IMG/VR virus record: IMGVR_UViG_3300044800_000226
Location: 1-35,194 of that record
Length of the DNA: 35,194 bases
Reading direction: 5' to 3' (one strand)
DNA from: a virus
The number at the start of each line of letters is the position of its first letter. The first letter of the stretch is position 1. Both the position numbers and the translations under genes were made by a program. Positions 2,895-34,667 of this stretch are shown here, piece after piece. The notes under the pieces are model-generated. The model saw only the letters and a program-made list of their open reading frames with translations, was not told the DNA's origin and made no database searches.

Positions 2895-3077
2895 TTACGG
2901 ATTTTTCGGCAGCCGGCCGTGTTCTTTGAGATACTGGAACAAGATTCTTTCTACGCGAGAGGACATAGACACATGCCGCTTGAAAGTCGATTCGTAATCT
3001 GTCTGGACGCTCTCTTCGCGCACGGCCTTGGCAATCCGGGGCTCGAGATACAGGATGCAGACACGCTCCTTGCTCAA
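2895..3077 (-). CDS. Small ribbon-helix-helix-like protein
   Basis: A 60-residue protein with a short strand (VCILYLEP), a helix (RIAKAVREE), a loop and a second helix (MSSRVERILFQYLKEHG). This is the size and pattern of CopG/Arc-type ribbon-helix-helix DNA-binding proteins. The start is a TTG at 3077 overlapping the TerL stop (TTGA), with a G-run ribosome site (GGTGGGGGGA) just upstream; the longer extension into TerL is rejected. Its position between TerL and portal, next to a repeat-bearing gap, suggests it may bind that gap. That regulatory role is inference. Confidence 0.6.
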   Translation of the reverse strand: MSKERVCILYLEPRIAKAVREESVQTDYESTFKRHVSMSSRVERILFQYLKEHGRLPKNP

Positions 3078-4579
3078 TGAAATCCCCCCACCTTGCGCAC
3101 TACTTGACTCGCCCGCGTCGCGCCGGCAGATCTCATGCCGCCGCCCTGTGTGTCGACCGTTGTGATCGCGAGTCCCCGCTGCAACTTGCCTTCCTTGATC
3201 GCCATGTTGCACAACCACAACGCCATCACCGTGTCGTCGTGCTTTGCCACGCTGACTATCTTGCCACTCTCCCAGGTGAGGCTGTTGAGCTCGTCGACGA
3301 GCGGTTGGGTGATCTTGACCGACTCATACTCGAAGGGCTGCCTGCCCGTCTTGGTCTCGGCCTCGGTCGGTCCTCGAGGTATCGTGATCATGCCCCGCTC
3401 GAACATCAGGCGCAGCGACGGCACGCCTTCGCGCATGTCCGACTTCTCCTTGCCGGTGTTGTGCCCGCTGATCGGCATGTTGCGCAAGGCGCCGGCGGCC
3501 TCCTGCTCGAGCCAACGCTGGAAAGCATTCTTCTCGATCTTCACATGCACGGGTTTGTAGGATTCCTCGATGTCCTGGAGCATGTCGATGTGCGCCTGCA
3601 GGGTCATGCCGCGCTGCCTGATCACATTCAGGACCGTGCGGTGGTCAGTGCTGCTGTCGTAAGCCATGATCGCAAACACAGTGTAGTCCGCGCCTATGCT
3701 TGCGGATGCGGCGGGATCCACGCCGACATACACCTCGAGGGGACCTTCGTAGCTCTGCGAGATAGGCATCTCCGCGTTGAAGCACTCCGTGATCAGGTGC
3801 ATGGGCAGCAGGCTGCTCGCTTCGTCCACGGGCTTGAGCATGTACTCTCGAGCGAACAGGACCTCGCCCAGGGCAGCCCTGCGTTCGTCTATCATGGCCT
3901 GCGTCCAGTACTCGGGCCACAACAACTTGCCGGCAGGATCTATCGCAGGGTACAGCTGCTTGTCGAAGATCCCGCGTTCCTCGATGCTGTGATAGGTGTC
4001 TCCGAAGTGTTTGTAGGTGCCCACGACGAGCATCCGGCCGTCCTTGGCGAGCATGGGAAACAAACTTGCGAAGAACCAACGGGTGAGGTTGCTGTCGGCG
4101 ATCGTCTGCATGTCCTCGATGATGTCGTCCACGAAGATGAACTGCGGGTGTGGCCCCACGATTCGCGTGACGGCACCCTTGGCGATCACCGTGTTGTTCG
4201 TCGTGGTCCTGATCATCTGCTTGGCCCATCGGTCCCGGTCAACTAGCTGCGGCATCTCGCGCTCGATCACTGTCTTCACGCGATCGAGTATGAGATGCGC
4301 CTGCTCTTGGCTGCTCGAGACGATGTAGACGAGCTGATGCTGCAGGCTCGCAAGGATCCACAGGATGGGCAGCACGACGACGTTCTCTGTCTTGCCGTGC
4401 CCTCGAGCGGCGAGTATCAGCAGCAGGGGCGATTGCTGCCAGTGTTGCAGCCACTCGTAGTGATGCTTCGCTATGTGGTACGGCGTGCCTTGCCAATCCC
4501 GACGGACGACCTGCTCCGCGAACGTCTTCATGATCGCGGGCAGATCGTCTATGGCATCCAGTCCTTTTCCTTCTGCCAT
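3074..4579 (-). CDS. terL: Terminase large subunit
   Basis: A 501-residue packaging motor: N-terminal ATPase plus C-terminal RNase H-like nuclease that cuts and pumps viral DNA into the prohead. Walker A is AARGHGKT (residues 57-64), Walker B FIFVDDIIED (147-156) with acidic residues after the strand, and the coupling motif VVGTY (185-189). The nuclease acidic residues are visible as GVDPAASAS (D288), KIEKN (E349) and HDD (D448/D449). Length is typical. The ATG at 4579 lies inside the end of the upstream gene (31-base overlap) without a clear ribosome site, implying translational coupling. Portal follows downstream, the classic packaging order. Confidence 0.95.
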   Translation of the reverse strand: MAEGKGLDAIDDLPAIMKTFAEQVVRRDWQGTPYHIAKHHYEWLQHWQQSPLLLILAARGHGKTENVVVLPILWILASLQHQLVYIVSSSQEQAHLILDRVKTVIEREMPQLVDRDRWAKQMIRTTTNNTVIAKGAVTRIVGPHPQFIFVDDIIEDMQTIADSNLTRWFFASLFPMLAKDGRMLVVGTYKHFGDTYHSIEERGIFDKQLYPAIDPAGKLLWPEYWTQAMIDERRAALGEVLFAREYMLKPVDEASSLLPMHLITECFNAEMPISQSYEGPLEVYVGVDPAASASIGADYTVFAIMAYDSSTDHRTVLNVIRQRGMTLQAHIDMLQDIEESYKPVHVKIEKNAFQRWLEQEAAGALRNMPISGHNTGKEKSDMREGVPSLRLMFERGMITIPRGPTEAETKTGRQPFEYESVKITQPLVDELNSLTWESGKIVSVAKHDDTVMALWLCNMAIKEGKLQRGLAITTVDTQGGGMRSAGATRASQVVRKVGGFH

Positions 4580-4857
4580 ATCGGGTCTAGGTCCGTGCGC
4601 TTGGCAAGGTCGTTCAACATCTCGCCCACAAAGCCCTTGGCATCAGGATGCACCAGGCCGACGAACACGATGGAGTACCCGAGCTCGCTGCTGATCTTCT
4701 CGGTCCAGACCTCGAGCTGCCATCTTGCTGCCTGTATGTCGCCGCGGTCGCCCAGGTCCACAGCGATGAGCTGCTTCTGCCACACATAGGCTATGATCGG
4801 ATGCGGGTTGTTCAAGGCAGGCGCGCGAACACCGCCTTTGAACGGTGAGGATTCCAT
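4549..4857 (-). CDS. Hypothetical protein upstream of TerL
   Basis: About 102 residues, not recognised. It starts in MESSPFKGG and contains a likely alpha/beta core: hydrophobic strands IIAYVWQKQLIAVDLG and YSIVFVGLVHPDAKG, a Trp-rich helix, and an acidic C-terminal helix. The ATG at 4857 has GAGG just upstream; a TTG at 4866 overlapping the previous stop is the alternative. It ends 31 bases inside terL, so the two are co-translated. Position alone would suggest a packaging accessory, but a better TerS candidate lies at 8485-9099. Confidence 0.6.
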   Translation of the reverse strand: MESSPFKGGVRAPALNNPHPIIAYVWQKQLIAVDLGDRGDIQAARWQLEVWTEKISSELGYSIVFVGLVHPDAKGFVGEMLNDLAKRTDLDPIWQKEKDWMP

Positions 4858-4862
4858 GGTCC

Positions 4863-5183
4863 TCAACCCTTGGGCTTGCGCGACTTCCTGCGCGCGCCCT
4901 GCACGACCTCGAACTCCGGTTCCGGAACCAGCGGCACTTCAGGCACGGTCGTCTCGACCAGCTTGTGTGCAGCCAACGCGCTCGCCGTTCCTTTCGCCTT
5001 GCGGTCTGCGAAGTGCTTCTCCATGTAGGCCTTCGGGCCGTACTTGCCGCACTTGCATTGCAGCATCTCGACTTCTCCCCCGCAGGTCGTGCAGTGCAGG
5101 TGCGACTCGCCCCGCACGAGCAGGTAGTGTTCGTCGTTCTCGTCTTCCACCACTTCGTCGTGGTCCTCTATCACTCTTGGCAT
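4863..5183 (-). CDS. Zinc-ribbon protein with acidic N terminus
   Basis: A 106-residue protein. The first 25 residues are strongly acidic (EDHDEVVEDENDE). A four-Cys zinc ribbon follows (C31, C34, C43, C45: CTTCG then CKCGKYG), then a charged helix and a Pro/Glu-rich stretch ending in a basic tail (RRKSRKPKG). The ATG at 5183 has GGAGATG upstream. It is one of a run of small zinc-binding proteins between TerL and TerS. It probably binds nucleic acid or protein; no specific function can be assigned. Confidence 0.65.
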   Translation of the reverse strand: MPRVIEDHDEVVEDENDEHYLLVRGESHLHCTTCGGEVEMLQCKCGKYGPKAYMEKHFADRKAKGTASALAAHKLVETTVPEVPLVPEPEFEVVQGARRKSRKPKG

Positions 5184-5230
5184 GTTGTTTCATCTCCTGT
5201 CCCCTGGACAACGCCCAGGTTGACTCTGAT

Positions 5231-5410
5231 CTATGACGCGCTGATGTGGACGTGTTGCCATACCTCGGGCTTCCCGTCCTCGATGCATTCACGCGGGAGG
5301 AGCGCCGGCGGGATCTCCTTCTTCTCGCACTGCTTGCTGCACCGGTGGTTCTTGCCCGTGCACCGCATGATCACAAGGTTGTGTTGGATCATGTACAGGC
5401 TGTTGCTCAA
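5231..5410 (-). CDS. Small Cys-rich protein, 59 residues
   Basis: A short gene read from the sequence. The TTG at 5410 overlaps a TGA in the preceding frame (TTGA) and has AAGGAGGTG upstream. The product has MRCTG, HRCSKQCEKKE and PRECIEDG, four Cys spaced like a zinc site, and ends QHVHISAS before TAG at 5231. An internal ATG (residue 7) is an alternative start. The strong ribosome site and Cys pattern support it; function unknown. It overlaps the 3' end of the neighbouring 113-residue gene in another frame. Confidence 0.55.
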   Translation of the reverse strand: MSNSLYMIQHNLVIMRCTGKNHRCSKQCEKKEIPPALLPRECIEDGKPEVWQHVHISAS

Positions 5411-5630
5411 CCTTGGGCACCTCCTTGAGGACCGCCTTCTGCTCGAGCGCCGTCAGCCGGTTGTTCAAGTCCAGGATGCTGTTGCGGTGGACCATCGTGT
5501 TGAAGTTCAACCGCATCAGTTGGCACGGCACGCACTTGCATGCGAGCTCGTGCCCGTTCGGCATCCGTTTTCCTTCTTTGATCTCTTGCTGCTTTCTTTG
5601 CTCTTCTTCCAGCCGCAACCGTTTCGCCAT
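5289..5630 (-). CDS. Hypothetical protein with CxCxxC motif and coiled coil
   Basis: A 113-residue product starting MAKRLRLEEEQRKQQ, with a GGGAGGC ribosome site seven bases before the ATG at 5630. It has a charged N-terminal helix, ACKCVPC (C31, C33, C36), then a leucine-zipper-like stretch (ILDLNNRLTALEQKAVLKEV). The last ~40 residues are low in information and overlap the 59-residue gene downstream, so they may be a fortuitous read-through. Upstream at 5631-5763 another open frame from a GTG at 5763 runs with a plausible start (VLTPTRTGKVDGG) but turns into an obvious shadow, so it is not called. Confidence 0.6.
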   Translation of the reverse strand: MAKRLRLEEEQRKQQEIKEGKRMPNGHELACKCVPCQLMRLNFNTMVHRNSILDLNNRLTALEQKAVLKEVPKVEQQPVHDPTQPCDHAVHGQEPPVQQAVREEGDPAGAPPA

Positions 5631-5762
5631 CTATTCTGCCTCCCATGTAATCCATGATGATCATGTCCACGATCGCCACACGTTCGATGCGACGGCCCTT
5701 TGCGATCAGTACCTTCCACCGCAGGCCTCCATCGACCTTGCCTGTGCGCGTTGGCGTGAGCA

Positions 5763-6467
5763 CTAGGGTCGCCAAGCGCGTCGCCTCCCCACTATGACAA
5801 TTAACGCGGTGATTGTGATAATCGGATACAACAATGCGAACTCGGGGATCGGATGCGGAATGAAGTAGAGGATGTCGAGTTGTGCACTGCCGACGCTTTG
5901 GTTGGGTTGATGTTCGACAAAGATGCCGGCAGCGGGCGACCACTTGCCTGCGAGCCAATCCATCGCAGCGTTCTCCATCCAGCCCCAGGACTCATTCATC
6001 AGGCTGCCGTCCCGGTCGTAACTCCATGAATGCCAACTGCCCATGGCTATCAGGGCCTGGCCTTCCCAGAAGAAGGAGTCGATGATCTTGCTGTTGTTCT
6101 CGCGCACCGTGATCACGCCGGGCGGCCCGCTGCAGTTGAAGATGAGCATGCCCAAGGCTGCACCATATTGGTTGCGCACCTGCGTGAAGTTCGCGAAGTC
6201 CTCGAACATATAGTAGGTGCCGCCCGGGATCTCGGCGCGCATCGTCATGTTCAATGTGATCAGGTGTCGTCCTGGTTCGTTGCCTGTTGGTGGCGTGGGT
6301 TCATCACCTGTGGGATGGGGCGCGGTCAAGGGCAACAACGTCGCCGCAGCCGGCACTATGATGCAGAGCGCAGTGATCACCGCGAATATGATGACCGGCA
6401 GAGATGGGCTGCGGCTTTTCTTGGGTTGCGACTTCCACTCGCCGATATCAGCTACGAGTCCCGTCAT
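5763..6467 (-). CDS. Secreted glycoprotein with PEF-CTERM-like sorting signal
   Basis: A 234-residue surface protein. A membrane segment at about residues 24-47 (LPVIIFAVITALCIIVPAAA) is followed by a Thr/Pro-rich linker and an extracellular domain with six N-glycosylation sequons (NMT, NFT, NCS, NNS, NES, NQS). The C terminus is IPEF, a hydrophobic helix, then GRRRAWRP. This tripartite motif-helix-basic pattern is what archaeal PEF-CTERM archaeosortase substrates show (established family knowledge; membership here is inferred). The ATG at 6467 overlaps the upstream stop (ATGA). A role in altering the host surface or blocking superinfection is plausible. It lies inside the packaging operon, among zinc-ribbon genes. 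Confidence 0.75.
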   Translation of the reverse strand: MTGLVADIGEWKSQPKKSRSPSLPVIIFAVITALCIIVPAAATLLPLTAPHPTGDEPTPPTGNEPGRHLITLNMTMRAEIPGGTYYMFEDFANFTQVRNQYGAALGMLIFNCSGPPGVITVRENNSKIIDSFFWEGQALIAMGSWHSWSYDRDGSLMNESWGWMENAAMDWLAGKWSPAAGIFVEHQPNQSVGSAQLDILYFIPHPIPEFALLYPIITITALIVIVGRRRAWRP

Positions 6468-6604
6468 TCACAATCACCCCACTTCTTGCCGCACCTGGGG
6501 CAGTATGACGGTGGGGCAGTCGTTCCGTTGACGTACCCGCAGCAACAGCAGTACACCAAGGTCGTCCGGTCGCAGGTCCTGTTCTCTGGAGCTCCTGCCG
6601 TCAT
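6464..6604 (-). CDS. 46-residue zinc-ribbon micro-protein
   Basis: A short gene read by eye. The ATG at 6604 overlaps the upstream stop (ATGA) and is preceded by a strong GGAGGATC ribosome site. The product has a run YCCCCGYVNG and then YCPRCGKKWGDCE, a compact zinc ribbon. Its own stop overlaps the start of the glycoprotein gene, so three genes in a row are coupled. This tight packing is strong evidence that it is real. Function unknown; possibly a rubredoxin-like or nucleic-acid-binding knuckle. Confidence 0.75.
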   Translation of the reverse strand: MTAGAPENRTCDRTTLVYCCCCGYVNGTTAPPSYCPRCGKKWGDCE

Positions 6605-6918
6605 GCGATCCTCCTGCCCTGGACGTTCTGCTCGTAGATGCGCCGGGCGTCCCTGTTGTGTGGGTTGCTTTGAATCTTGCGCATGGCGCTGAAGGCCTTG
6701 GGGGTGAAGGGCTTGCTGCAGACGTAACAGGCATCAGTCTCGCGTTCGATGACGAGCTCCGCGCAGTCCTTGCACAACCACCGGCGCGGATCCGTGCGCT
6801 TGATCCGGGCGTGCTTGTTCGTCAGGGGGTGATAGCAGCGGATACAGACGCGAGGCTCAGGCTGCTCGAGGTTGTTCTTCTGGCAGACGGCCTTGGCACA
6901 CTTGTTGCAGAGCGTCAC
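6601..6918 (-). CDS. Multi-CxxC zinc-finger protein
   Basis: A 105-residue protein with four CxxC pairs from the GTG at 6918: C4/C7, C25/C28, C49/C52 and C64/C67, consistent with two treble-clef or ribbon zinc sites. A basic C-terminal region follows (AMRKIQSNPHNRDARRIYEQ). The GTG overlaps the preceding stop (GTGA) with GGTGG upstream. It resembles general archaeal zinc-finger or HNH-like scaffolds, but I see no HNH catalytic His-Asn-His set. Probably nucleic-acid binding. Confidence 0.7.
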   Translation of the reverse strand: MTLCNKCAKAVCQKNNLEQPEPRVCIRCYHPLTNKHARIKRTDPRRWLCKDCAELVIERETDACYVCSKPFTPKAFSAMRKIQSNPHNRDARRIYEQNVQGRRIA

Positions 6919-7133
6919 AGCAACCACCAAGCCAAGGCATAGAGGGCGCCGGCCGCGATGACAGCCAAGAGCAATCGAATCCAGAAGGGCAGGACCTCGC
7001 GACGGATCCGTTGTGTCTCGAGCATCTCAGTTCGCAGGGGGCAGTCGTAGCAGTCCGCCCCACACTGTCTGCAGTGGTCGCCATCCCAAGCGGCGATGCA
7101 ACAATCGCAGTGTCTGCAACAGAGTTCAGGCAT
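6915..7133 (-). CDS. Cys-rich zinc protein with C-terminal membrane anchor
   Basis: A 72-residue protein. Residues 5-31 carry nine Cys (CCRHCDCC, HCRQCG, DCYDC), enough for one or two zinc sites. Residues ~50-72 form a hydrophobic helix (FWIRLLLAVIAAGALYALAWW) ending the protein, so the zinc domain is tail-anchored at the membrane and probably faces the cytoplasm. ATG at 7133, with GGATGAAG upstream; it overlaps the previous gene by 8 bases. The architecture is unusual for a virus and function is unknown. Confidence 0.7.
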   Translation of the reverse strand: MPELCCRHCDCCIAAWDGDHCRQCGADCYDCPLRTEMLETQRIRREVLPFWIRLLLAVIAAGALYALAWWLL

Positions 7134-7359
7134 GTCTCTTCATCCTCGTGCAGAGTCCCATGCACTGCATCTTCTGCCGCACTGCGTGTTCCGTTCGACC
7201 CAGGAGGCCGGCTATTCCGCGCGCAGTCTTGTGCAGGCGACATGCTTCTCGTAGGAGCTCCTCTTCCTCGGGTGTCCAGAAGTAGCGCGGGTCTTCCGGC
7301 AGCGCCTTGAGCTCCTCAAGCGTGATCGTCTTGCCGCGGATGCTGATCGCTTGCTTCAT
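7126..7359 (-). CDS. SANT/Myb-like helix-turn-helix protein
   Basis: A 77-residue protein starting MKQAISIRGK. Residues ~26-66 (YFWTPEEEELLREACRL, then ARGIAGLLGRTEHAVRQKM) match the Trp-led three-helix pattern of SANT/Myb or GcrA-like DNA-binding domains. The ATG at 7359 overlaps the stop of a 39-residue gene upstream (ATGA), with GGAGGT ten bases before it. Likely a small DNA-binding regulator. Confidence 0.65.
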   Translation of the reverse strand: MKQAISIRGKTITLEELKALPEDPRYFWTPEEEELLREACRLHKTARGIAGLLGRTEHAVRQKMQCMGLCTRMKRHA

Positions 7360-7475
7360 ACGAAATGCGACCTCCTGCACCTCGGGCAATAGGCGACCTT
7401 GCTGCGAGGTTGGTTCATGCGCGAGCCGCAATCAGGGCAAGGATGATGTCCGGGATCCTCGGGTCCGGTGTGCAT
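7356..7475 (-). CDS. 39-residue zinc-ribbon micro-protein
   Basis: A short gene read by eye: ATG at 7475, GGTGGAAG upstream, stop overlapping the next start. The product has HPCPDCGSRM and YCPRCRRSHFV, a complete four-Cys zinc ribbon (C13, C16, C30, C33). It sits three bases after the metallophosphoesterase stop. Likely nucleic-acid binding; function unknown. Confidence 0.7.
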   Translation of the reverse strand: MHTGPEDPGHHPCPDCGSRMNQPRSKVAYCPRCRRSHFV

Positions 7476-7477
7476 GC

Positions 7478-8308
7478 TCACGCTTCCACCACCGGGCAGA
7501 GCTTCGTTGCGGGCGATTCGACGCCGTCATGGTCGACAGTGAACTTGCCGCTCGGTTCGACATACACTACCGAATAGCCGATCTCGGGCGGCGTGATCTG
7601 CCCGGTCTTAATCGCGAAGGGTGTGCGCAGCTGCCAAGCGGCCGTGATGAAGCCATGCGAGTGCGAGTAGTAGGCCCCGACGAGCCAATGCTGATGTGAG
7701 CGCACAACCAGGGGGACCTTGCCGTACTTCTTGAGTGCGTCATTCAGCTTGAGGAGGACCATCTGCCGGGCGATCGAGGTCGTCGCATACATCCAGATGG
7801 ACTTTGTGGTCGGGACGTCATGCGAGATATGCGCCCTGAACTTGCAGCCCTTCCAGGTAGGGTCGTCATGTTCAGGTCGCAGGATGAAGTCAGGATGAAA
7901 CTCGCCATGCGGCAGTTGCTCGACGACCGCCTGATCGAGGGGTGTGTTGTCGCCGGTATGGTACCCGCTGCCCTGCGTGCCCACGAACTTCTTGGCCTTG
8001 ATCATCTTGAGCAGTTCGACTGCTTCCTTGACCTGCGAGTTCAGGTCAGTGGTCCACAGGTGCATACCCTGGGACTTCCGCTGTACGCCATCGCATGTAT
8101 CGCCGTTGATGATGCAGCAGTCGACCACGCCGACCTTGTGCACCATGTCCTTCCAATGCTTGAGCAGGTATCGTTGTCCTGCATTGGCAGTCACGATGCT
8201 GGATTCGCCCGTCAGCACGTTCACGATCTCGGTACGCTCACGCATCAATCCGTAGAGGCTGCCCGCGTGAATGTCGCTCACAAACAGGTACTTCTTTTCA
8301 CTTGTCAT
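7478..8308 (-). CDS. Calcineurin-like metallophosphoesterase
   Basis: A 276-residue protein with metallophosphoesterase signatures: FVSDIHAG (D12, H14), IINGDTCDG (N68, D70), AHISHD (H160, H163) and VRSHQHW (H205, H207). The usual GNHE/D block is replaced by a GTQGSGYHTGD segment (residues 110-120), so the metal site is variant. The family uses two metals to cleave phosphomono- or diesters; the substrate here is unknown. ATG at 8308 with GGAGG eight bases upstream is preferred to a TTG at 8323. It sits with the zinc-ribbon genes downstream of the TerS-like gene; end-processing or anti-defence nucleotide cleavage are possible roles. Confidence 0.8.
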   Translation of the reverse strand: MTSEKKYLFVSDIHAGSLYGLMRERTEIVNVLTGESSIVTANAGQRYLLKHWKDMVHKVGVVDCCIINGDTCDGVQRKSQGMHLWTTDLNSQVKEAVELLKMIKAKKFVGTQGSGYHTGDNTPLDQAVVEQLPHGEFHPDFILRPEHDDPTWKGCKFRAHISHDVPTTKSIWMYATTSIARQMVLLKLNDALKKYGKVPLVVRSHQHWLVGAYYSHSHGFITAAWQLRTPFAIKTGQITPPEIGYSVVYVEPSGKFTVDHDGVESPATKLCPVVEA

Positions 8309-8492
8309 GCCTTGGTCCTCCAAATAGTTGCTTGATGGCCTGCTGCGCCCGCGTCAGTACTGCGGATGCGAACAGGTCTTGGACCGTGACTCGCCGGCGT
8401 TTCGATGGGCCATGCCAAAGGCAGTTGATGCAGCCCCACTTGTTGCGTGACAGGCGCCGGATCCTGTCGCCGCACTTTGAACATCTAACCAT
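8298..8492 (-). CDS. Small zinc-ribbon protein
   Basis: A 64-residue protein. An N-terminal zinc ribbon (C4, C7, C21, C24: RCSKCG, GCINC) is followed by a basic patch (GPSKRRRVTVQ) and an amphipathic helix (VLTRAQQAIKQLF). It overlaps both neighbours: 8 bases with the TerS-like gene and 11 with the phosphoesterase. Likely binds nucleic acid; no family name recognised. Confidence 0.7.
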   Translation of the reverse strand: MVRCSKCGDRIRRLSRNKWGCINCLWHGPSKRRRVTVQDLFASAVLTRAQQAIKQLFGGPRHDK

Positions 8493-9099
8493 GCCCGGCC
8501 ACCTCCTCGAGCTGCTTCCTGTAGCCGTCCAACTCTGCCCGCTGCTTGTCGTTCAGCATGCTGAGGGCCTTCGGGTAGAGCTTGGTCGCCAGGATGATGT
8601 TGGCCTCTGTAGAAACGGCCACATTCACCTCGGTGCTGACCGCCGTGCCGTTCTCGTCCAGGCCCATGCACTTGCGCTCGATCTTGACCGCGATGTCCAA
8701 CCAACGAGCGACATCGGTAGGGCTGAGGACCTCCGGGCGGATCTTGCCGATGCGCTGCAGCACGAGGTCCTGGAGTTTGTGAGACTCATTGATGTGACGC
8801 CGGTTCATGCGGACGATCGCGTCCTTCTCGTCCTCGACGACTTCCTTACTGATCACGGCGTCGTAGGCCCGGACCCGGTCGACCCAATCATGCCGCGAGG
8901 ACCACCGGGACATGAGCGCGATGTTCTTGCCCGACTCCTTCGCTACCTTCTCGTGACTGCGTTTGGCGCCCAGACTGCGATAGATGGAGAATGCTTCGTA
9001 GGCCTGAGTCGACTCGTCGTCTCGTTGTTCCCAGGGCTTCTTGCTGTTTCTGACTGACCCTGCTCGATCCTTGGGGCGCTTCCCTGTTGCCTTGACCAT
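8485..9099 (-). CDS. Terminase small subunit-like DNA-binding protein
   Basis: A 204-residue protein with a conserved N-terminal pattern known from small terminase and phBC6A51-type proteins: PWEQRDDESTQAYEAFSIYR, a helix-turn-helix (KRSHEKVAKESGKNIALMSRW) and WVDRVRAYDAVIS, then long helices. TerS recognises the packaging site and feeds DNA to TerL. ATG at 9099 with AAGGG upstream, after a 77-base gap that may hold a promoter. It is unusual in lying about 3.9 kb upstream of terL, with an accessory cassette between them. Confidence 0.7.
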   Translation of the reverse strand: MVKATGKRPKDRAGSVRNSKKPWEQRDDESTQAYEAFSIYRSLGAKRSHEKVAKESGKNIALMSRWSSRHDWVDRVRAYDAVISKEVVEDEKDAIVRMNRRHINESHKLQDLVLQRIGKIRPEVLSPTDVARWLDIAVKIERKCMGLDENGTAVSTEVNVAVSTEANIILATKLYPKALSMLNDKQRAELDGYRKQLEEVAGHG

Positions 9100-9176
9100 C
9101 GGAGTGAACCCTTTCCGGTTCGCTTTCCTTTGGTTCGATTCTCTTTAGTTGGGGGGTGTCTTACGCAGCTCTGTAC
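9100..9176 (-). promoter_or_regulatory. Intergenic gap with AAGACACCCCC element
   Basis: A 77-base non-coding gap upstream of the TerS-like gene. On the minus strand it carries AAGACACCCCC (9152-9162), shared exactly with the gap upstream of the portal gene, and a purine-rich tract with GAATCGAACC. Gaps are rare in this operon, so an internal promoter or operator is likely. No clear TATA box was seen. Confidence 0.4.
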
Positions 9177-9587
9177 CTACCATCGCAGGACCTCCATGTC
9201 CAGGGGGAAGTCGTGATAGTGCCGCAGGACGTCGCGGAGAGCGATACCTGTCGGCGGTGAGATGAAGTCGAGGGAGGCGAGGGCATCGGCGTAGGATGTA
9301 TCCCATCCTTGGATCCATTCGCTCCTCGAGTTGCCGGGGAAGTGCTTTCCGATCCCTGCGTCTGAGACCCTTATCGGGTTGACGGTTGTGAGCGGGTCCC
9401 GTCGTCTCCAGGACCACTTCGAGTAGTAGGGCACGCCTTTCCATCCGTGGAGCAGCGCGTCGTCACCTACCCGTCTAGGCTTTGCGTGAGGGGCTTCGCT
9501 GACCGGCCTGATCGTCTGTCGGCATGCTCCGGTGCGCACTGCCTCTTCCTTGGGCTTGTAGGTGATGGCGAGGATGTGAGTTGTCAA
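9177..9587 (-). CDS. ASCH/PUA-like domain protein
   Basis: A 136-residue protein opening ILAITYKPKEEAVRTGACRQTIRP, close to the ASCH superfamily pattern of a strand, a K-x-x-A-I/V-R-x-G helix, then a T-I-R strand. VGDDALLHGWKG continues the fold. ASCH domains bind RNA or modified nucleosides; the function here is unproven. The start is a TTG at 9587 overlapping the upstream stop (TTGA) with AGGAAG nearby. Confidence 0.6.
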   Translation of the reverse strand: MTTHILAITYKPKEEAVRTGACRQTIRPVSEAPHAKPRRVGDDALLHGWKGVPYYSKWSWRRRDPLTTVNPIRVSDAGIGKHFPGNSRSEWIQGWDTSYADALASLDFISPPTGIALRDVLRHYHDFPLDMEVLRW

Positions 9588-9805
9588 GTCTTCCTGGTCT
9601 CCTTGGGGTTCATCATCTTCTCCAGCGACCGTCTAACGAGTGCATGCTCAATCATCCAGTCCAGTCCCAGGTTCTTGTTCAGCCAATCCGAGATGATGAA
9701 CTGCACCACATGCTCGACGGTATCTCCGAATCCGGGCATCAGACTCGTGAGGGCCATGTATTCGGGCTCTCTCATGTTCAGGTCGACTCGGAACGCGCCC
9801 ATCAC
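9584..9805 (-). CDS. Small ribbon-helix-helix-like protein
   Basis: A 73-residue protein with a strand (FRVDLNM), a helix (EPEYMALTSLM), and a second helix (DTVEHVVQFIISDWLNKN), a plausible ribbon-helix-helix layout. The GTG at 9805 overlaps the upstream stop and has GGAGGT six bases before it; an ATG at 9802 is the alternative. Probably a DNA-binding regulator, though the fold call is weak. Confidence 0.55.
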   Translation of the reverse strand: MMGAFRVDLNMREPEYMALTSLMPGFGDTVEHVVQFIISDWLNKNLGLDWMIEHALVRRSLEKMMNPKETRKT

Positions 9806-10533: not shown

Positions 10534-10830
10534 TCACCCGAACAAGGCCGACAGGCCCATGCTTGTGCGTTCCGCATTGCACCGAAGCAACAACTTGGTC
10601 ATATCGCGCACGCCGCGTTCATATCCGCGCTGATCAGCACACTGTTCGGCGAGACGCTGCCTAACATCGGCCAAGTCCTTCCTGGTCAAGTCATGCAGGT
10701 TGCTCTCGAACACGGCTGTCTGCCGCGTCTCTGCAAGTTCCTCGCGCAGCTTCTTGATATCATCCGTCGCGTCCCAAAACTGCTTTTGCAGTCTGTTGTA
10801 TGGATGGTCGGGACCCTTTTGTGGTGGCAT
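10534..10830 (-). CDS. Coiled-coil hypothetical protein
   Basis: A 98-residue protein, almost wholly helical and charged (DATDDIKKLREELAETRQ, DLADVRQRLAEQCADQRGYERGVRDMTKLLLRC), consistent with a coiled-coil dimer. The ATG at 10830 overlaps the ParB-like stop (TGATG) with GGGGGCGAG upstream. It may partner the ParB-like protein it is coupled to, by position only. Confidence 0.6.
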   Translation of the reverse strand: MPPQKGPDHPYNRLQKQFWDATDDIKKLREELAETRQTAVFESNLHDLTRKDLADVRQRLAEQCADQRGYERGVRDMTKLLLRCNAERTSMGLSALFG

Positions 10831-12206
10831 CAGCTCGCCCCCTTCTTTGGGCCCTTCTTGGCATCCTCAGAATGCTCCACCTTCGCCACCTTGAAGGGCC
10901 AGCTCGGCTCCAGCTGTCTCAGATGCGTGAAGTTGAGGCCGCGCCTGACGTCCTCAAGGTCGTGCTCCAGGGCTTTCGTCAGGAGCGAGTTCTCCAGGTC
11001 CTTGACCTCCGCGCCCTTCTTCGTCTTGTTCGCGTTGAACTGTTCGATCAGGTACGCGAGCTCCTTCTCAGTCAGCGGCGACGTTCTCTTGTCGAGGTAC
11101 TTCTTGAACGACTCGTCCACGCCCGCGAGCTCCTCCTTGCATTTGGCGTGTTGCCGCCTTGTCTCCTGGGCCGTCTTGCCCTGGAAGCAGCTCGACTTCG
11201 TGCAGGTATCGTTCTTCTCGCCCTTCGCCTTCCCGAAGCTCTGATACTCCGGCTTCTTGAGGACCCGGTTCGGGCAGTCCTTGCAGATGACCTCGACATT
11301 GAATGATGCATCCGCGAGATCCCGGTCGCTCTGATAGTTGAACTTGCTTCCGGAGACCGCCTTGGATCCCGCCTTGGCAGCCTTCTTCTGCTCTGCCTCG
11401 TCGAGCTTGACACGCGCGGCCTCGATCTGTCCGAGGAAGCAGTCGTTGTCAAGGCAGTGCCGCTCTGTCTTCTTGCCCTTCTTGGAGAGCTCGAAGAAGT
11501 GCGGGCACCCGCCCATGCACTTGCTGAAGTCGAAGAACTTGTAGAGGCCCTCGTACTCGTAATCGTTCAGGTCCAGGTTCTCGCCAACTGATTCCAGGGC
11601 GCTGTATGCGCACTCCTCCGCGCGTTCAACGGTGAGGCCGCCGCGCATCTTCATCTGCTGCTTCAGATCCTTGATGACCTCTATCCGGAGCTCCTCGCGC
11701 TCGGCGTAGGGCATCACGGCCAACACATGAGTCGCTTGGAGATCGCCTTCCCGCATCATCGTCCTCAGCTCCTCCGGGGCCTCGAGCAGCTTGAGCCGTT
11801 CCCTGACCCATGTCTCCGACTTGCCCACGCGCTTCGCGAGGTCCTTGGGATCCCTGCCCATGTCAATGAGCCCCTGGAGCCCGGAGGCCTCCTCGAGCGG
11901 CGTAAGATCCTCGCGCTGCAGGTTCTCCACGAGCATGACGACCCGGACCTCTTCGTCCGTCGCCTCCCGGATGATCACCGGGACCTCCTTGAGCTTGAGT
12001 TCCTTCGCGGCCTTGAGACGCCTCTCTCCGGAGATGAGCTCGTAGCCCTTCTCGGCCTTGCGCACGATCAGGCGGATCTGTATGCCGCCCTCGTTCGTGA
12101 TGCTCGTCTTGAGTTCCTCGAGCTTCTCTCCCTTGATCTCCTCCCTCGGATTCCAGCCTGTCAAGTGGATCTCCGAAGGGCTCACGCTTGCTAGTGTTTC
12201 CTTCAT
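10830..12206 (-). CDS. ParB-like protein with C-terminal Cys clusters
   Basis: A 458-residue protein. Residues ~8-150 form a ParB/Spo0J N-terminal domain: GWNPRE, ISGERRLKAAKEL (GERR box, CTPase-type motif), VENLQREDLTPLEEA and a helix-turn-helix (DLAKRVGKSETWVRERLKLLE). The C-terminal part has Cys pairs C230/C234, C251/C256, C308/C311 and C335/C340, likely zinc sites as in some plasmid and phage ParB proteins. ATG at 12206 has GGAGGAAGT upstream. No ParA ATPase was recognised, so it may serve plasmid partition with a host partner, or act as a transcription or replication regulator. Candidate binding sites are the iterons at 14643-14866. Confidence 0.85.
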   Translation of the reverse strand: MKETLASVSPSEIHLTGWNPREEIKGEKLEELKTSITNEGGIQIRLIVRKAEKGYELISGERRLKAAKELKLKEVPVIIREATDEEVRVVMLVENLQREDLTPLEEASGLQGLIDMGRDPKDLAKRVGKSETWVRERLKLLEAPEELRTMMREGDLQATHVLAVMPYAEREELRIEVIKDLKQQMKMRGGLTVERAEECAYSALESVGENLDLNDYEYEGLYKFFDFSKCMGGCPHFFELSKKGKKTERHCLDNDCFLGQIEAARVKLDEAEQKKAAKAGSKAVSGSKFNYQSDRDLADASFNVEVICKDCPNRVLKKPEYQSFGKAKGEKNDTCTKSSCFQGKTAQETRRQHAKCKEELAGVDESFKKYLDKRTSPLTEKELAYLIEQFNANKTKKGAEVKDLENSLLTKALEHDLEDVRRGLNFTHLRQLEPSWPFKVAKVEHSEDAKKGPKKGAS

Positions 12207-13419: not shown

Positions 13420-13620
13420 TTACTCACTTCCCTTCTCGCCCACCTTGATCCACAGCTTGTCCGCCGTGACCGTCTTGTAGATGATCTCCAGCGTCGGGCT
13501 GCTCTTGGCGGTCTTGTTCACGAGCTCGAGCACATCCCTCAGTTCGTAGAGGTCGCCCCTGATCACGAGACCGAGGTGTGCCTTCAGATCTGTCCCCTGT
13601 TCTGTTCCCATCCTGTTCAC
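13420..13620 (-). CDS. Small hypothetical protein
   Basis: A 66-residue protein, an alpha/beta unit (LGLVIRGDLYELRDVLELVNKTAK, TLEIIYKTVTADKLWIKVG). The GTG at 13620 overlaps the RusA stop (GTGA) with AAGGAGAT upstream. No family recognised. Confidence 0.6.
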   Translation of the reverse strand: MNRMGTEQGTDLKAHLGLVIRGDLYELRDVLELVNKTAKSSPTLEIIYKTVTADKLWIKVGEKGSE

Positions 13621-14054
13621 CGTATCTCCTTGATTGCTACGGTAGTGAACCTAATCACGACGCCCGTCTGTTGCCCGGGATCCGCGAAGTCCTTGGCGGC
13701 CGTGACGACATTGATGCGCGAGTCGTTGTCGTATACGATGCCTGCGAGCGCGTCCCCGACTGCTCGGATGAGCTTGTCGAGATCCGGCTGCTTATTGTGC
13801 AGGACTACGCGCTTCGATGTCGACTCCGGCTTCTGAAAATAGAAATGAAGGTCGAGGAGGACGGCCTGCGTCTTGTCGACGCAAGGGACACTGTGCTCCT
13901 CGACGTACCGCTGCGCCTCGTAACGCACGGCTTGCTCCCATCCCTTGAGGTTCTTGTTCGTGCTCGTGATGATCACGCGCTTCCCGCGAATGAACCCCCT
14001 CGCGCTTCCCTTGGGCTCGGGTTCTCCCATCACTCGGAACTCGTGAGTCGTCAC
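13617..14054 (-). CDS. rusA: RusA-family Holliday junction resolvase
   Basis: A 145-residue protein of normal RusA length. It shows the N-terminal MGEPEPKGSARGF strand-loop, and the catalytic core KQPDLDKLIRAVGDALAGIVYDNDSRI with acidic residues at D91, D93 and D109/D111. RusA dimers cut four-way junctions formed during recombination or replication, useful before packaging. GTG start at 14054 overlaps the upstream stop and has GGAGGACG before it. It is coupled to the ribbon-helix-helix gene upstream. Confidence 0.88.
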   Translation of the reverse strand: MTTHEFRVMGEPEPKGSARGFIRGKRVIITSTNKNLKGWEQAVRYEAQRYVEEHSVPCVDKTQAVLLDLHFYFQKPESTSKRVVLHNKQPDLDKLIRAVGDALAGIVYDNDSRINVVTAAKDFADPGQQTGVVIRFTTVAIKEIR

Positions 14055-17098: not shown

Positions 17099-17292
17099 AG
17101 CCTCCCCTCCGATCGTGCGCGCGAGAGAATCTCTTCTCGGAAGGCGAGCGTGATCTTCCGAGCGTATCTGCGAGCTCTTCGTGGTCCGGTCCGCCCTCTG
17201 CTCTCTTCGGCTGTTGGGAAGGGCTTCCAAAGGATCGCCCGTGCGCCCTTCCGCCTCTCCTCCGCGAGAATCAACTTCTCTGCGTGGGTCAT
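17095..17292 (-). CDS. Small basic helical protein
   Basis: A 65-residue Arg/Lys-rich protein (THAEKLILAEERRKGARAILWKP, then TGPRRARRYARKITLAFREEILSRARS). ATG at 17292 with GGAGGCGCC upstream, overlapping the upstream stop. Possibly nucleic-acid binding by charge alone. Confidence 0.6.
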   Translation of the reverse strand: MTHAEKLILAEERRKGARAILWKPFPTAEESRGRTGPRRARRYARKITLAFREEILSRARSEGRL

Positions 17293-17564
17293 TGCGGCGC
17301 CTCCGTGGTCTCGTCTGCTTCGCAAACGAAGCCACTCAGATCGACGCAGTGAATGCAGTTGGCGTCATCCGGCATGTGTTCGCATCTGACGCATTCCTTG
17401 AACCGCTTCGGCTTCTCCGCGGGCTTCTCGTTGAGGAACCAATCGTCCTCGTCTATCCTGGCCGCGAGCCGCTCCTCCGCGTAAGGCATGCCCTTGCCGT
17501 ACAACTCGGCGAGAGTCTCGTGGAGGACTGCTTTTCGCTTCCGAACCTCCTCATCGGTCCTCAT
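17289..17564 (-). CDS. Small zinc-binding protein
   Basis: A 91-residue protein with a charged N-terminal helix (EEVRKRKAVLHETLAELYGKG) and a C-terminal zinc site (ECVRCEHM, NCIHC, GFVCE). ATG at 17564; its start context is identical over 16 bases to that of the next gene downstream. Unknown role. Confidence 0.65.
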   Translation of the reverse strand: MRTDEEVRKRKAVLHETLAELYGKGMPYAEERLAARIDEDDWFLNEKPAEKPKRFKECVRCEHMPDDANCIHCVDLSGFVCEADETTEAPQ

Positions 17565-17788
17565 TGCGGCGCCTCCTTGGCCGGCGCCGCAGGCATCTGA
17601 GGCGTGGCGACCTCGGCGAAGGCCCTCAGGTTGACCATGGTCTGTATGCTCTCGACGGACGCGGCCTCGTCTCTGCTGTTGAGGTAGACCTTGATGCGCG
17701 CGTTCGCCGGCCCGAACTCGATGCTGTCCTTGCGCTCCTCGAGCTCCAGGAGCCTCTGCAGGAGGATGGCCTGAGTGTCGTTGCTCAT
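17561..17788 (-). CDS. Hypothetical protein
   Basis: A 75-residue protein: a helix (DTQAILLQRLLELEERKDS), a strand pair (IEFGPANARIKVYLNS), a helix and a Pro/Ala tail ending KEAPQ. ATG at 17788 with AAGGGGGCC upstream, overlapping the preceding stop. Not recognised. Its 3' end resembles the 3' end of the next gene (TEAPQ). Confidence 0.6.
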   Translation of the reverse strand: MSNDTQAILLQRLLELEERKDSIEFGPANARIKVYLNSRDEAASVESIQTMVNLRAFAEVATPQMPAAPAKEAPQ

Positions 17789-18399
17789 GCCTTGGCCCCC
17801 TTGCCTTCTCGTTGTTCCCAACCTTCCATCTCGACGATCTTGCCGTCGAAATTCAGGAAGATGCCGCACTCGAAGCAGGCCTGGTACTTCTTGACCCACT
17901 TCTTCCCGGTCTTCGCGTTCTCCTTCTCAGACTCCGCATCGATCTCGGTGTTGCCGCATCTCGGGCACTTGTTCCATCGCGGCTTGTTGCGGTCGTATGC
18001 GGGCTCGCCTTCGACGGTCTCTGCCACCGGCGTGTCATCCTTGGCCGGTGTTGCGGGCTTGACATCCTTGGCGGGCTCTGCCGGCTTCTCATCCTTCTTC
18101 GGTGGACTCGCGGGCTTGCTTGCCGGCGGTGTCACCGGAGCGGACTTCGCGGGCGTGTCCTTCGGTGGAGCTGCCGGAGTCGCGGACTTTGACGCAGTGA
18201 TGCCGAGCTCCTCCTCGGTCGCGACCTTGACAACCTGCCCCATGTCGTGATAGAACCGGTTGATCATCGGCACGTCGTCTGTCTTCAACTCCCCGGGCGC
18301 GAACGTAATGATCATCTCCCGTTCGGCCTTCGCGCTCTCGTACTGCTTTGGTTGGATCGTGCGGCCGTAGACCACACGAAGCTGCTCTATCCATGGCAT
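17785..18399 (-). CDS. First gene of the early operon: Pro/Ala/Lys-linker protein with zinc ribbon
   Basis: A 204-residue protein. The N-terminal ~75 residues form a compact strand-rich domain (WIEQLRVVYGRTIQPKQYESAKAEREMIITFAPGE). A long Pro/Ala/Lys/Asp linker follows, then a zinc ribbon (KCPRCGNTEI, ACFECGIFLNFDG) near the C terminus. The layout resembles single-strand DNA-binding or adaptor proteins with a flexible linker, but I cannot name it. ATG at 18399 with AAGGGAAGTG upstream. It is the start of about 18 kb of near-continuous leftward coding. Confidence 0.65.
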   Translation of the reverse strand: MPWIEQLRVVYGRTIQPKQYESAKAEREMIITFAPGELKTDDVPMINRFYHDMGQVVKVATEEELGITASKSATPAAPPKDTPAKSAPVTPPASKPASPPKKDEKPAEPAKDVKPATPAKDDTPVAETVEGEPAYDRNKPRWNKCPRCGNTEIDAESEKENAKTGKKWVKKYQACFECGIFLNFDGKIVEMEGWEQREGKGAKA

Positions 18400-18794
18400 G
18401 GTTTCACTTCCCTTTCGTTGACGATGGTGGATCCCCCGGACGAGTGAAGGAGCGGGGTGCGCTCCATGCAGTTTATGTCCGGGGTTTCCTTGGTGGCTCG
18501 TGATGCTGAAAAAGATGGGGGAGGGACCCGAGCCTGGTGGTTCCATGCCTGGTAAAGGCCGATGACACTTGCTTCTTGCCCAACTGTTTCAATGAAGCCC
18601 GGGTCCCCATGTTGGTTCGAGAAGGATTGCGTCGGGTCGAATTGCACGACCTCCTCGAGATCATGAGTCTCGAATGCTGCTAGTACACCACGACGCAGCT
18701 GTGTACACGACGGTGTATACCAAATGGTATCATACTGAAAAGTATAGGAGGGCGAGTCATAATATCCCAGATTCTGGGAGATTGTGACGCTCAC
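18387..18794 (-). CDS. Doubtful ORF over the control region
   Basis: An open frame from a GTG at 18794 to 18387, 135 codons. It starts in and crosses a cluster of palindromes, has no family resemblance, and its composition (many Tyr/Thr/Ser, Pro-rich end) differs from its neighbours. It overlaps the next gene's start by 13 bases and the preceding frame by 4 (GTGA). It is listed because it would be the only gene between 18400 and 18790; otherwise that stretch is non-coding control DNA. Confidence 0.3.
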   Translation of the reverse strand: MSVTISQNLGYYDSPSYTFQYDTIWYTPSCTQLRRGVLAAFETHDLEEVVQFDPTQSFSNQHGDPGFIETVGQEASVIGLYQAWNHQARVPPPSFSASRATKETPDINCMERTPLLHSSGGSTIVNEREVKPCHG

Positions 18795-18795: not shown

Positions 18796-18982
18796 GCAGG
18801 TCCTCCGCGAGAACGAGATGCTTGCGGCTGATCAGCTCAGCATAAACCTGGAACCGGCTGTACGGCCGGTCGTACATGTCGGAGATAAGCCAGATGGTGG
18901 GAGTGGGCCCAACCGGATTTGGTTCCGCATCGACTATCTGGACGGGACGGATTGTGTACGATGCCGTGCTATTCGATAACAC
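18791..18982 (-). CDS. Possible small protein downstream of integrase
   Basis: A 63-residue frame from GTG at 18982, overlapping the integrase 3' end by 49 bases, with GAAGG upstream. The product looks protein-like (SYTIRPVQIVDAEPNPVG, TIWLISDMYDRPYSRFQVYAELISRKHLVLAEDLL). Its stop lies inside a palindrome and overlaps the doubtful ORF's GTG. Moderately plausible; function unknown. Confidence 0.4.
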   Translation of the reverse strand: MLSNSTASYTIRPVQIVDAEPNPVGPTPTIWLISDMYDRPYSRFQVYAELISRKHLVLAEDLL

Positions 18983-19824
18983 GACATAGCCTTCGTCATG
19001 TGTCTGAGGTTGACATCGATGTACTTCCTCGTTGTCGCTTCGTCCGCATGCCCGAGGATCTCGCCGATCGTCGCAAGATCGAGGGTCTTCTGCCCGTGCT
19101 CGTCCGTCGCCTCGTACCATTGCTGCGCGCAGGTCCTCCGCATGTCGTGGAACGCGAAGTTGTCCAGCCCGTTGTCCGAGATGAACTGCTTGAGCAGGTC
19201 CTCCGCTCGGGACTTCTTGAAGCCGAGCAGGAGCTCCGGGTCCTGACGGAACGGATTGGACCTCATGTACTCGGCAAGGGCCTCGCGCGTGTCCGGGTGC
19301 AGAGGCACCGGTCTCGCCTTGTAGCCCTTGCCGTGCACCTGCAGGATCCCGGAGATCAGCGCGTCGTTCGCCTCGTCCCAACGGATCCTGAGGATCTCGC
19401 ACATGCGCAGGCCCATGAGCAGCCCGAGATAGATCATCACTGCGACCTTCGGCTTCATCGGCGAATCGAAGATCTTGCCGACCTGCTCCTCCGAGAGCCA
19501 CCGGACTCGAGTCCGCGCGGTGCCTGACATCTTCACCTTGATGTTGAACGCCGCCGGGTGTCCGCAGAACTTCAGGAAGTTGCGCAGGATGACCGTCGTG
19601 ACCTTCTGATACACGCAGGACATCCCGTCGAGCTTCAACAGGAACTCCTTCACGAGCTCCGATGTGATCAGCGACGGCGCGCGGATCCCATGGTCCTCGC
19701 AATGTCGTCTGAAGTGCCTGAGCGTGCGTGCCTGCTCGAGGACGTACTTTTCGGTCAACCCCTCCTGACGCAGATGTCTGATGTACCGGCTCATCTCTCG
19801 AGTCAATCGAGAGTATTCGTTCAT
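18934..19824 (-). CDS. int: Tyrosine recombinase (integrase)
   Basis: A 296-residue XerA/XerD-like tyrosine recombinase. The N-terminal SAM-like core-binding domain spans ~1-100 (SRYIRHLRQEGLTEKYVLEQ). Catalytic residues are visible: R140 in GLRMCEI, K in GKGYKARPVPL (~167-169), H226 and R229 in FHDMRRT, H259 in LGHADEATT, and the nucleophile Y268 in RKYID. The length matches archaeal XerA-type enzymes. It would integrate or excise the genome, or resolve dimers. ATG at 19824 with GGGGGGT upstream. A 28-residue tail follows the catalytic Tyr. Divergent from the regulator on its start side. Confidence 0.93.
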   Translation of the reverse strand: MNEYSRLTREMSRYIRHLRQEGLTEKYVLEQARTLRHFRRHCEDHGIRAPSLITSELVKEFLLKLDGMSCVYQKVTTVILRNFLKFCGHPAAFNIKVKMSGTARTRVRWLSEEQVGKIFDSPMKPKVAVMIYLGLLMGLRMCEILRIRWDEANDALISGILQVHGKGYKARPVPLHPDTREALAEYMRSNPFRQDPELLLGFKKSRAEDLLKQFISDNGLDNFAFHDMRRTCAQQWYEATDEHGQKTLDLATIGEILGHADEATTRKYIDVNLRHMTKAMSCYRIARHRTQSVPSR

Positions 19825-33524: not shown

Positions 33525-34667
33525 TCACAGGATGTCCCTGATCTTCCCTTGGCTGCAGAATCTCGTGCAGATGAGCTCCCCGGCTGTCAGCACGATGTTG
33601 TCCACACCCAGGAAGTCGTTGGCAACCCGGTTGTCCGAAGTCATCACTGTGGTCGGCACGCTCATCCAGAAGCTAATGTGCTCGAGGTCGAGCAGGAGGA
33701 TCCTGCTGGACTCATCAGCTTCCTTGGGCATGATCGTCGAGTCCAATACGACGATCGGGGTACCGTCCCAGGATCTCAGCTCGAGGCCTGCATCCGCCCC
33801 GGCCGCGGATTCGATCCCGTTGACAAGGGTCTTCTTGCCTTGCCACTCACCGAACCGTTGCCCGGGAGATACCAGGGCCTTCCAGCGCCTGTACGTGTCC
33901 TGCCCGGTCACGAACACCTGCCTTGCAGGATCCGCGCCATAGCTGCGTGTCTGCTCGATCAGCGTCTCGATCTTCGCCAGCGTCAACGCCTGTGGTGTGC
34001 TGTCGTACTCGAGGACCTGCGAGTCATACACGGTGCTCGTGGCGCCATCTCTGTTGATGCTCGACACTGCCTCAGTGTACGGGTCGGAGTCCCCGGCCGT
34101 GTAGCCGTCCCCGGTGATCTCGTTGTATGACGATATCAGCCGGTCCAAGCTCTCGAAGTTGTAGCCGGCCAAGGTGTTGCTGTCCTTGAGCAGCATCGCT
34201 TCGATCGCTCGCGGGTGTCTCACCCGGAAGTACTCTGCGAAGTCAGCGTTGCTGACCGCGCCCGCTCTGTACTTCGTCATGCGTTCCGCTTTGTCTGTGA
34301 ACTGCCATCTGCTGAGCACTTCCTTCTCTGCGAAGGTGTACTCGGCGAAGGTCGGCACATCAGAATCGACGAGGGCAGCAGCCTCAGCGATACCCGCTGT
34401 GGTCGCCTCATCGGTCGTGATGATCTTCACTTTCTCGCCCGTCAACTGCTTGAGGGGCAGAAGCGAAAACACCTTCGCATCGTACACCAACGAGTAGAAG
34501 ATACCCGCTGTGGCAGCCGCAGTGCCCATCCCGGTGTCGCTGGACAGCGCCGGGTCGTCGATCTTCCGCAACACGTCGTCAAGGCGTAGCGCCTCACCGA
34601 ACTGGTTGCCAAAGATGTCCTCGTAGTAGCCGTTGATGAAATCAACGACATTTCCATAGGCCGTCAT
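33525..34667 (-). CDS. Major capsid protein, HK97 fold
   Basis: A 380-residue protein with HK97-type character: FGEALRLDDVLRKIDDPALS, a central E-loop region, AEYFRVRHPRAIEAMLLKDSNTLAG, QVFVTGQDTYRRWKALV and ILLLDLEHISFWMSVPTTV, followed by a strand-rich A-domain end. It forms hexamers and pentamers of the head. ATG at 34667 with GAGGTG upstream is preferred over a GTG at 34676. The scaffold-like gene precedes it, as usual. No prohead protease is seen. Confidence 0.85.
   Translation of the reverse strand: MTAYGNVVDFINGYYEDIFGNQFGEALRLDDVLRKIDDPALSSDTGMGTAAATAGIFYSLVYDAKVFSLLPLKQLTGEKVKIITTDEATTAGIAEAAALVDSDVPTFAEYTFAEKEVLSRWQFTDKAERMTKYRAGAVSNADFAEYFRVRHPRAIEAMLLKDSNTLAGYNFESLDRLISSYNEITGDGYTAGDSDPYTEAVSSINRDGATSTVYDSQVLEYDSTPQALTLAKIETLIEQTRSYGADPARQVFVTGQDTYRRWKALVSPGQRFGEWQGKKTLVNGIESAAGADAGLELRSWDGTPIVVLDSTIMPKEADESSRILLLDLEHISFWMSVPTTVMTSDNRVANDFLGVDNIVLTAGELICTRFCSQGKIRDIL

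Follow-up and report, generated by a model that had tools for sequence, protein, structure and literature searches.

The virus genome analysed here, IMG/VR record IMGVR_UViG_3300044800_000226 (35,194 bp, hereafter the window), carries twelve genes in the 3905 bp that separate the terminase genes terS and terL, and six of them encode small proteins with paired cysteine motifs. We propose that this cassette is an accessory operon, set between terS and terL, whose zinc micro-proteins turn over rapidly and probably act on host or viral machinery, a reading drawn from sequence comparison in which we place slightly more belief than doubt. An accessory role of the host-interaction type is suggested because the zinc genes turn over among relatives while their position and type persist. 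An earlier note on this DNA had described a cluster of zinc or Cys-rich genes holding TerS and TerL about 3.9 kb apart; both terminase genes are genuine, all of the open reading frames (ORFs) listed there were recovered at the same coordinates, and the observation of the cluster is largely right. From TerS to TerL the genes are:

8485-9099, minus strand: TerS, the upstream boundary (phrog_6299, E 1.7e-22)
8298-8492, minus strand: z8298, putative zinc-ribbon micro-protein of 64 amino acids (aa), CSKCG...CINC, basic C-terminus
7478-8308, minus strand: divergent metallophosphoesterase (mpe), PF00149 sub-threshold
7356-7481, minus strand: z7356, putative zinc ribbon, 41 aa, CPDCG...CPRC
7126-7359, minus strand: Myb-like helix-turn-helix (HTH) protein, 77 aa (PF00249, phrog_323)
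6915-7133, minus strand: z6915, Cys-rich head CCRHCDCC...CRQC...CYDC and a C-terminal hydrophobic stretch, a predicted transmembrane (TM) segment
6601-6918, minus strand: z6601, 105 aa, four CxxC pairs, zf-C2HC5/DZR-like but sub-threshold
6464-6604, minus strand: z6464, putative zinc ribbon, 46 aa, CCCCG...CPRCGKKW
5763-6467, minus strand: membrane protein, 234 aa, two hydrophobic segments and N-x-S/T sites
5289-5630, minus strand: z5289, 113 aa, CxCxxC (GHELACKCVPC), conserved core gene
5231-5410, minus strand: z5231, Cys-containing, 59 aa
4863-5183, minus strand: z4863, putative zinc protein, 106 aa, CTTCG...CKCG, conserved core gene
4549-4857, minus strand: orf4549, 102 aa, family unassigned, conserved core gene, overlapping TerL by 31 nt
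3074-4579, minus strand: TerL, the downstream boundary (phrog_38, E 6.8e-51)

Eight of the 13 junctions between TerS and TerL are overlaps of 4, 8 or 11 nt, and of the other five, two are longer overlaps, 31 nt from orf4549 into TerL and 122 nt between 5289 and 5231, and three are gaps (132, 47, and 5 nt). The idea that overlapping junctions keep the set together therefore holds for the eight short overlaps, but the chain is broken by the three gaps (around 5763, 5231, and 4863). Since start-to-stop overlaps occur among the cassette genes and with terS and terL, the cassette and the terminase are probably translated from shared transcripts.

The case for the cassette is carried by two relatives. 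R1 (IMGVR_UViG_3300044798_000674, L004) is a close relative with a TerL of 97% identity, and R2 (IMGVR_UViG_3300032342_000024, L003, with L064 and L065) is a genus-level relative (TerL 66%, major capsid protein (MCP) 75%) with a genome of about 37.5 kb that a 127-nt terminal repeat indicates to be circular. In R1 all cassette genes lie in the same order within a TerS-TerL interval of 3907 bp, at 70-97% protein identity (z8298 85%, z7356 90%, z6915 83% with its Cys conserved, z6464 93%, the membrane protein at 5763 90%, z5231 79% with four Cys kept, and orf4549 90%). Of the eight genes originally counted as zinc or Cys-rich, those at 4863, 6464, 6601, 6915, 7356, and 8298 have paired C-x(1-3)-C motifs, whereas 5231 and 5289 have no classic zinc ribbon: z5231 contains C-x6-C-x3-C and a distant fourth Cys without CxxC, and z5289 contains CxCxxC only. 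Six of the eight thus qualify as CxxC micro-proteins in the sense of fewer than about 100 aa and at least two paired Cys motifs, z4863 (106 aa) and z6601 (105 aa) being slightly over the length. Compared with R1, the ratio of nonsynonymous to synonymous substitution rates (dN/dS) of the six paired-Cys genes is 0.09-0.24 (z8298 0.24, z7356 0.16, z6915 0.15, z6601 0.22, z6464 0.09, z4863 0.24), showing purifying selection, and changes are commonest at third codon positions. The same ratio is 0.07 for mpe, 0.09 for orf4549, and 0.24 for TerS, and it stays within 0.07-0.33 across the cassette, excepting z5289, z5231, and the ORF at 5407. Two further credible genes of the small zinc-pair type, at 17289-17564 and 17785-18399, lie elsewhere in the record, so that six of eight are in the TerS-TerL interval. 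Expansion of the zinc genes by paralogy is unsupported, as only matches of CPxCG length were found.

The genes at 5231 and 5289 have dN/dS values of 0.5-0.6 (z5289 0.61). They share the 122-nt overlap, other ORFs overlap z5289 at either end, and five of the eight changes in z5231 outside the overlap fall at its third codon position. Both genes look coding. An open frame on the minus strand at 5407-5763 (118 aa in the window and R1, the first 44 aa well conserved) overlaps z5289 in another frame, as z5289 in turn overlaps z5231, and the overlaps from 5763 to 5231 are possibly a stretch of nested coding. These three overlapping frames with their raised dN/dS are what could be said for an annotation or assembly artefact, in which the small ORFs would be chance readings or the region mis-joined. 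We regard this as very improbable given the same order at 70-97% protein identity in the independent assembly R1, the related organization in the circular third genome R2, and the third-position bias in the six zinc genes. Contamination or mis-assembly was ruled out by R1 and R2. The cassette occurs in three independent assemblies and is not the chance product of one, and its recurrence in independent genomes makes the original observation stronger.

Comparison with R2 separates a stable part of the cassette from a changing one. There TerS sits at the end of the contig, its stop codon at 37283, and TerL starts at 6439, giving an interval of about 6.6 kb that reads, in the direction of TerL: an HTH protein, zinc genes, an open frame (1098-1775, family unassigned), a z6601 homologue, a membrane-anchored Cys-rich gene, a zinc gene, a SemiSWEET/PQ-loop-like membrane protein (L003:3542-3820, PF04193 above cut-off), a CxxCxG gene, the phosphoesterase, the Myb-like gene, a z5289 homologue, two zinc ribbons, and homologues of z4863 and orf4549. 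The series phosphoesterase, Myb, z5289, z4863, orf4549, TerL is collinear in the window, R1, and R2, and identity to R2 is 40% for the phosphoesterase, 36% (E 2e-9) for the Myb-like protein, 40% over 58 aa (E 2e-9) for z5289, 40% for orf4549, and 51% for TerS. The eight paired Cys of z6601 and the four Cys of z4863 are invariant in the three viruses. On the other hand, R2 has at least seven zinc-motif genes in its interval that are unrelated to those of the window, and no R2 homologue was found for z8298 or the membrane protein at 5763, nor any detectable R2 counterpart for the window zinc genes other than z6601, z5289, and z4863. One R2 gene (L003:2890-3105) combines a TM segment with Cys and is analogous to z6915, with reversed topology. 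Just upstream of TerS, a CxxC micro-gene of R1 (L004:8498-8629) occupies the position of the window gene at 9584-9802, which itself has no match in R1, and this swap is a direct sign of turnover.

The expectation that the set moves together as a block did not hold. The synonymous rate (dS) varies about five-fold within the cassette (window vs R1: 1.1 for the phosphoesterase and z6601, 0.9 for z4863, and 0.2-0.5 for z6464, z7356, 5763, TerS, and TerL, single values being noisy because the genes are short and overlap), and in R2 the z6601 homologue has changed to the other side of the phosphoesterase. The pattern is one of a constant core surrounded by mosaic replacement. When viral contigs were scanned with profiles of the MCP, the phosphoesterase, z6601, orf4549, and z4863, the cassette turned up in no fourth genome; the scans returned L075 (short, with the MCP and portal end), L082 (a z6601 relative), and L079 (a phosphoesterase relative).

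The earlier view that cargo is normally not tolerated between TerS and TerL agrees with the five genomes compared, MSTV1, psiM2, BJ1 (annotated genes), ValentiniPuff, and Aphanizomenon CL131, in all of which the two genes are adjacent, making an insertion of 4-7 kb unusual. It is not a rule: in the virus ChaoS9 terS and terL are separated by an HTH gene, and CxxC genes immediately precede terS and follow the portal gene (PMC6471424). Nor is the protein class without a name, as had been supposed, since small CxxC/zinc-finger micro-proteins of archaeal viruses have been described (PMC7230728, PMC7911831, PMC6471424, PMC7221443). Haloviruses carry many of them, with binding and regulatory roles proposed; in Hardycor1 CxxC genes immediately precede terL (PMC7911831), those of His2 are expressed in early and late phases (PMC7221443), and deletion of the host's own zinc micro-proteins in Haloferax gave phenotypes under particular growth conditions in 12 of 16 mutants (PMC6562870). 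Like the window, haloarchaeal viruses (the HF1 group, Hardycor1, ChaoS9, and His2) have many paired-CxxC genes of fewer than about 100 aa, often adjacent and overlapping, and one Hardycor1 CxxC micro-protein has a C-terminal TM segment, as does z6915. In the window, by contrast, six zinc genes share the terS-terL interval with a Myb-like gene and a phosphoesterase gene. A search of phage records, made with z6601 alone, gave no sequence homology to the halovirus examples. The Methanofastidiosa virus vir519 has MCP and portal proteins of the same families as the window and carries several small zinc-pair genes, one upstream of terL, and the Methanomicrobiales virus vir555 has the closest annotated phosphoesterase, there downstream of the primase region, but in neither is a terS-terL zinc cluster recognizable. 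Hence the protein class is known, and it is the density, location, and partners that are new.

The location itself admits another explanation, namely that the interval genes are accessory factors of the terminase or portal, required for packaging the DNA and expressed together with the terminase in the late phase, the zinc proteins serving as assembly adaptors and the phosphoesterase acting on DNA ends or as a nuclease factor. The conserved position and the translational coupling with TerS and TerL would fit such a module, as would the placement, in each of the three viruses, of z4863 and orf4549 immediately ahead of TerL, the conserved Cys-paired insert of the portal itself (window and R2), and the HNH zinc proteins linked to packaging that flank TerL in HVTV-1. 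However, TerS homologues work without such genes in the viruses where TerS and TerL are adjacent (MSTV1, psiM2, ValentiniPuff, Aphanizomenon CL131, and the annotated pair of BJ1), several zinc genes are not common to the window and R2, and the SemiSWEET-like membrane protein lies in the same interval of R2. We therefore think it unlikely that packaging accounts for the set, although it is an alternative to be taken seriously for the constant genes that adjoin TerL.

The turnover at a fixed site with the protein type unchanged could also be that of an anti-defence island, in which most of the variable zinc micro-proteins inhibit restriction, CRISPR-Cas, or other systems and are swapped to suit the arsenal of the host. 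Lar-type proteins, small zinc ribbons on mobile elements with anti-restriction activity, are an established precedent. In R2 a gene at 3817-3987 resembles Lar over 12 residues, below threshold, and the contig L082, which has an integrase-like gene and a z6601 relative (2031-2345, 31%, E ~6e-6), ends in a Lar-like CPFCG gene (5331-5663, judged by eye), a possible link between the z6601 zinc family and anti-restriction genes. Against this, the window zinc proteins gave no match to the Lar family (PF14354) or other anti-restriction Pfam families up to E 5 among the matches listed (one list holding the best 25), and PADLOC gave none for six cassette proteins (mpe, z6601, the Myb-like protein, the 5763 protein, z4863, and orf4549). 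Archaeal inhibitors of the AcrID1 type offer no shared sequence feature to test, and the early expression expected of such genes is not evident given their coupling to late packaging genes. Nothing specific, be it a PADLOC, Lar, or usable fold match, ties the cassette to the anti-defence module raised in the earlier note; we consider an island of this kind doubtful as an account of the cassette, and an anti-defence role for part of the set possible.

For the metallophosphoesterase, PF00149 scores of 17.8 and 20.5 bits remain below the gathering threshold of 21.5, but the motif residues D-x-H, GDxx[DE]G, GSGYHxG, HxxH, and RSHxH are conserved. With calcineurin-like metallophosphoesterases (PF00149; exonuclease PHROGs 7339 and 284) it shares D-x-H, GDxx[DE]G, and HxH, and it differs from them by GSGYH in place of GNH[DE] and by its score. 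A profile search against solved structures returned nothing for it. The relative in L079 (9995-10822) lies in a phage replication region, where it adjoins a DnaB-type helicase with a RusA-like gene nearby, a context hinting at a role of the family in DNA metabolism. The Myb-like protein scores 23.3 bits against PF00249 (cut-off 24.4, E 7e-5) and matches phrog_323 at E 9e-8, and orf4549 has no PHROG match. The membrane protein at 5763 had been taken for a glycoprotein with a sorting signal, which we do not uphold: PEF-CTERM (TIGR03024) scores are 13.3-16.2 bits against a cut-off of 23 and bacterial controls also score, so a sortase-type glycoprotein was rejected as a candidate. For z6601, an AlphaFold model from a three-sequence alignment is of moderate quality (predicted local distance difference test score, pLDDT, 70), and profile search against solved structures gave generic zinc proteins only.

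Other recognizable genes of the window, nearly all of whose genes lie on the minus strand, are:

520-2763: portal (PHROGs 18178/12)
33525-34667: MCP (PHROG 24667)
18934-19794: tyrosine integrase
10830-12206: ParB-like protein

A tail-tube protein was also recognized by profile match, and TerS, TerL, portal, and MCP share one head gene block, the packaging module characteristic of Caudoviricetes. The tyrosine integrase and the ParB-like protein suggest a temperate lifestyle. MCP matches are confined to viruses of Haloarcula and Methanofastidiosa, the portal match to vir519, and the phosphoesterase match among annotated records to vir555, while TerL and TerS match archaeal viruses mixed with bacterial phages; a tailed virus with an archaeal host is thus likely, though unproven. 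When bacterial and archaeal genomes were scanned with TerL, no provirus came to light, the sole match being a remote cyanobacterial fragment. The portal insert (CLQCG...CTCG, kept in R2) is atypical of portals. Adjoining the integrase is a tRNA-Met-like sequence (18627-18697), possibly an attachment-site remnant or a viral tRNA, and a RusA-type Holliday junction resolvase is at 13617-14054 (PF05866, E 7e-14). Upstream of TerS, on the minus strand, a non-coding stretch of about 70 nt (9105-9176) has 97% identity to R1 and contains an inverted repeat, GAACC-GGAAAG-GGTTC, adjoining the TerS start; it is a candidate packaging (pac) or regulatory site. The 136-aa protein of 9177-9587 is 98.5% identical to that of R1, its neighbours 83-86%, which suggests recent exchange or strong constraint.

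Several points weigh against an accessory operon of zinc micro-proteins. No zinc protein of the cassette reaches a curated family cut-off among the Pfam profiles, so that zinc binding by the micro-proteins is inferred from Cys spacing, and the clustering of zinc genes, with a hypergeometric P of ~3e-4, was evaluated post hoc from approximate gene counts. The cluster is found in three genomes only and its turnover is traced from few points. The z6601 model has no significant Foldseek match, and the AlphaFold model of the phosphoesterase, also from a three-sequence alignment, is unusable (pLDDT 31).

We nevertheless favour the accessory operon, in which the metallophosphoesterase, the Myb-like protein, z6601, z5289, z4863, and orf4549 would form the stable core, with zinc-ribbon micro-proteins being gained, lost, and replaced around and within it. 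One or two zinc ions would hold the fold of each micro-protein, which, judging from what is known of zinc ribbons and from the halovirus literature, may act as a small nucleic-acid- or protein-binding module. Through such modules host transcription, DNA processing, or defence might be redirected, or viral gene expression tuned. In this scheme the Myb-like protein would be a DNA-binding factor and the phosphoesterase an enzyme with nucleic acid or nucleotides as substrate, and those core genes that adjoin terL may have an additional role in packaging.

A more far-reaching version, which we put forward as distinctly improbable, is that the terminase operon contains a lineage-wide exchange site for zinc micro-proteins that disarm or reprogram the archaeal host, with the phosphoesterase and the Myb-like protein as its fixed core. 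If true, this would be an archaeal counterpart of anti-defence islands, sited in a late operon. For the functions of zinc micro-proteins of archaeal viruses, a conserved site that acquires new ones would be a compact test set, in which the fixed core and the variable part can be compared across relatives and the genes expressed singly. The position between TerS and TerL, if general in the lineage, would serve as a marker for candidate host-interaction genes.

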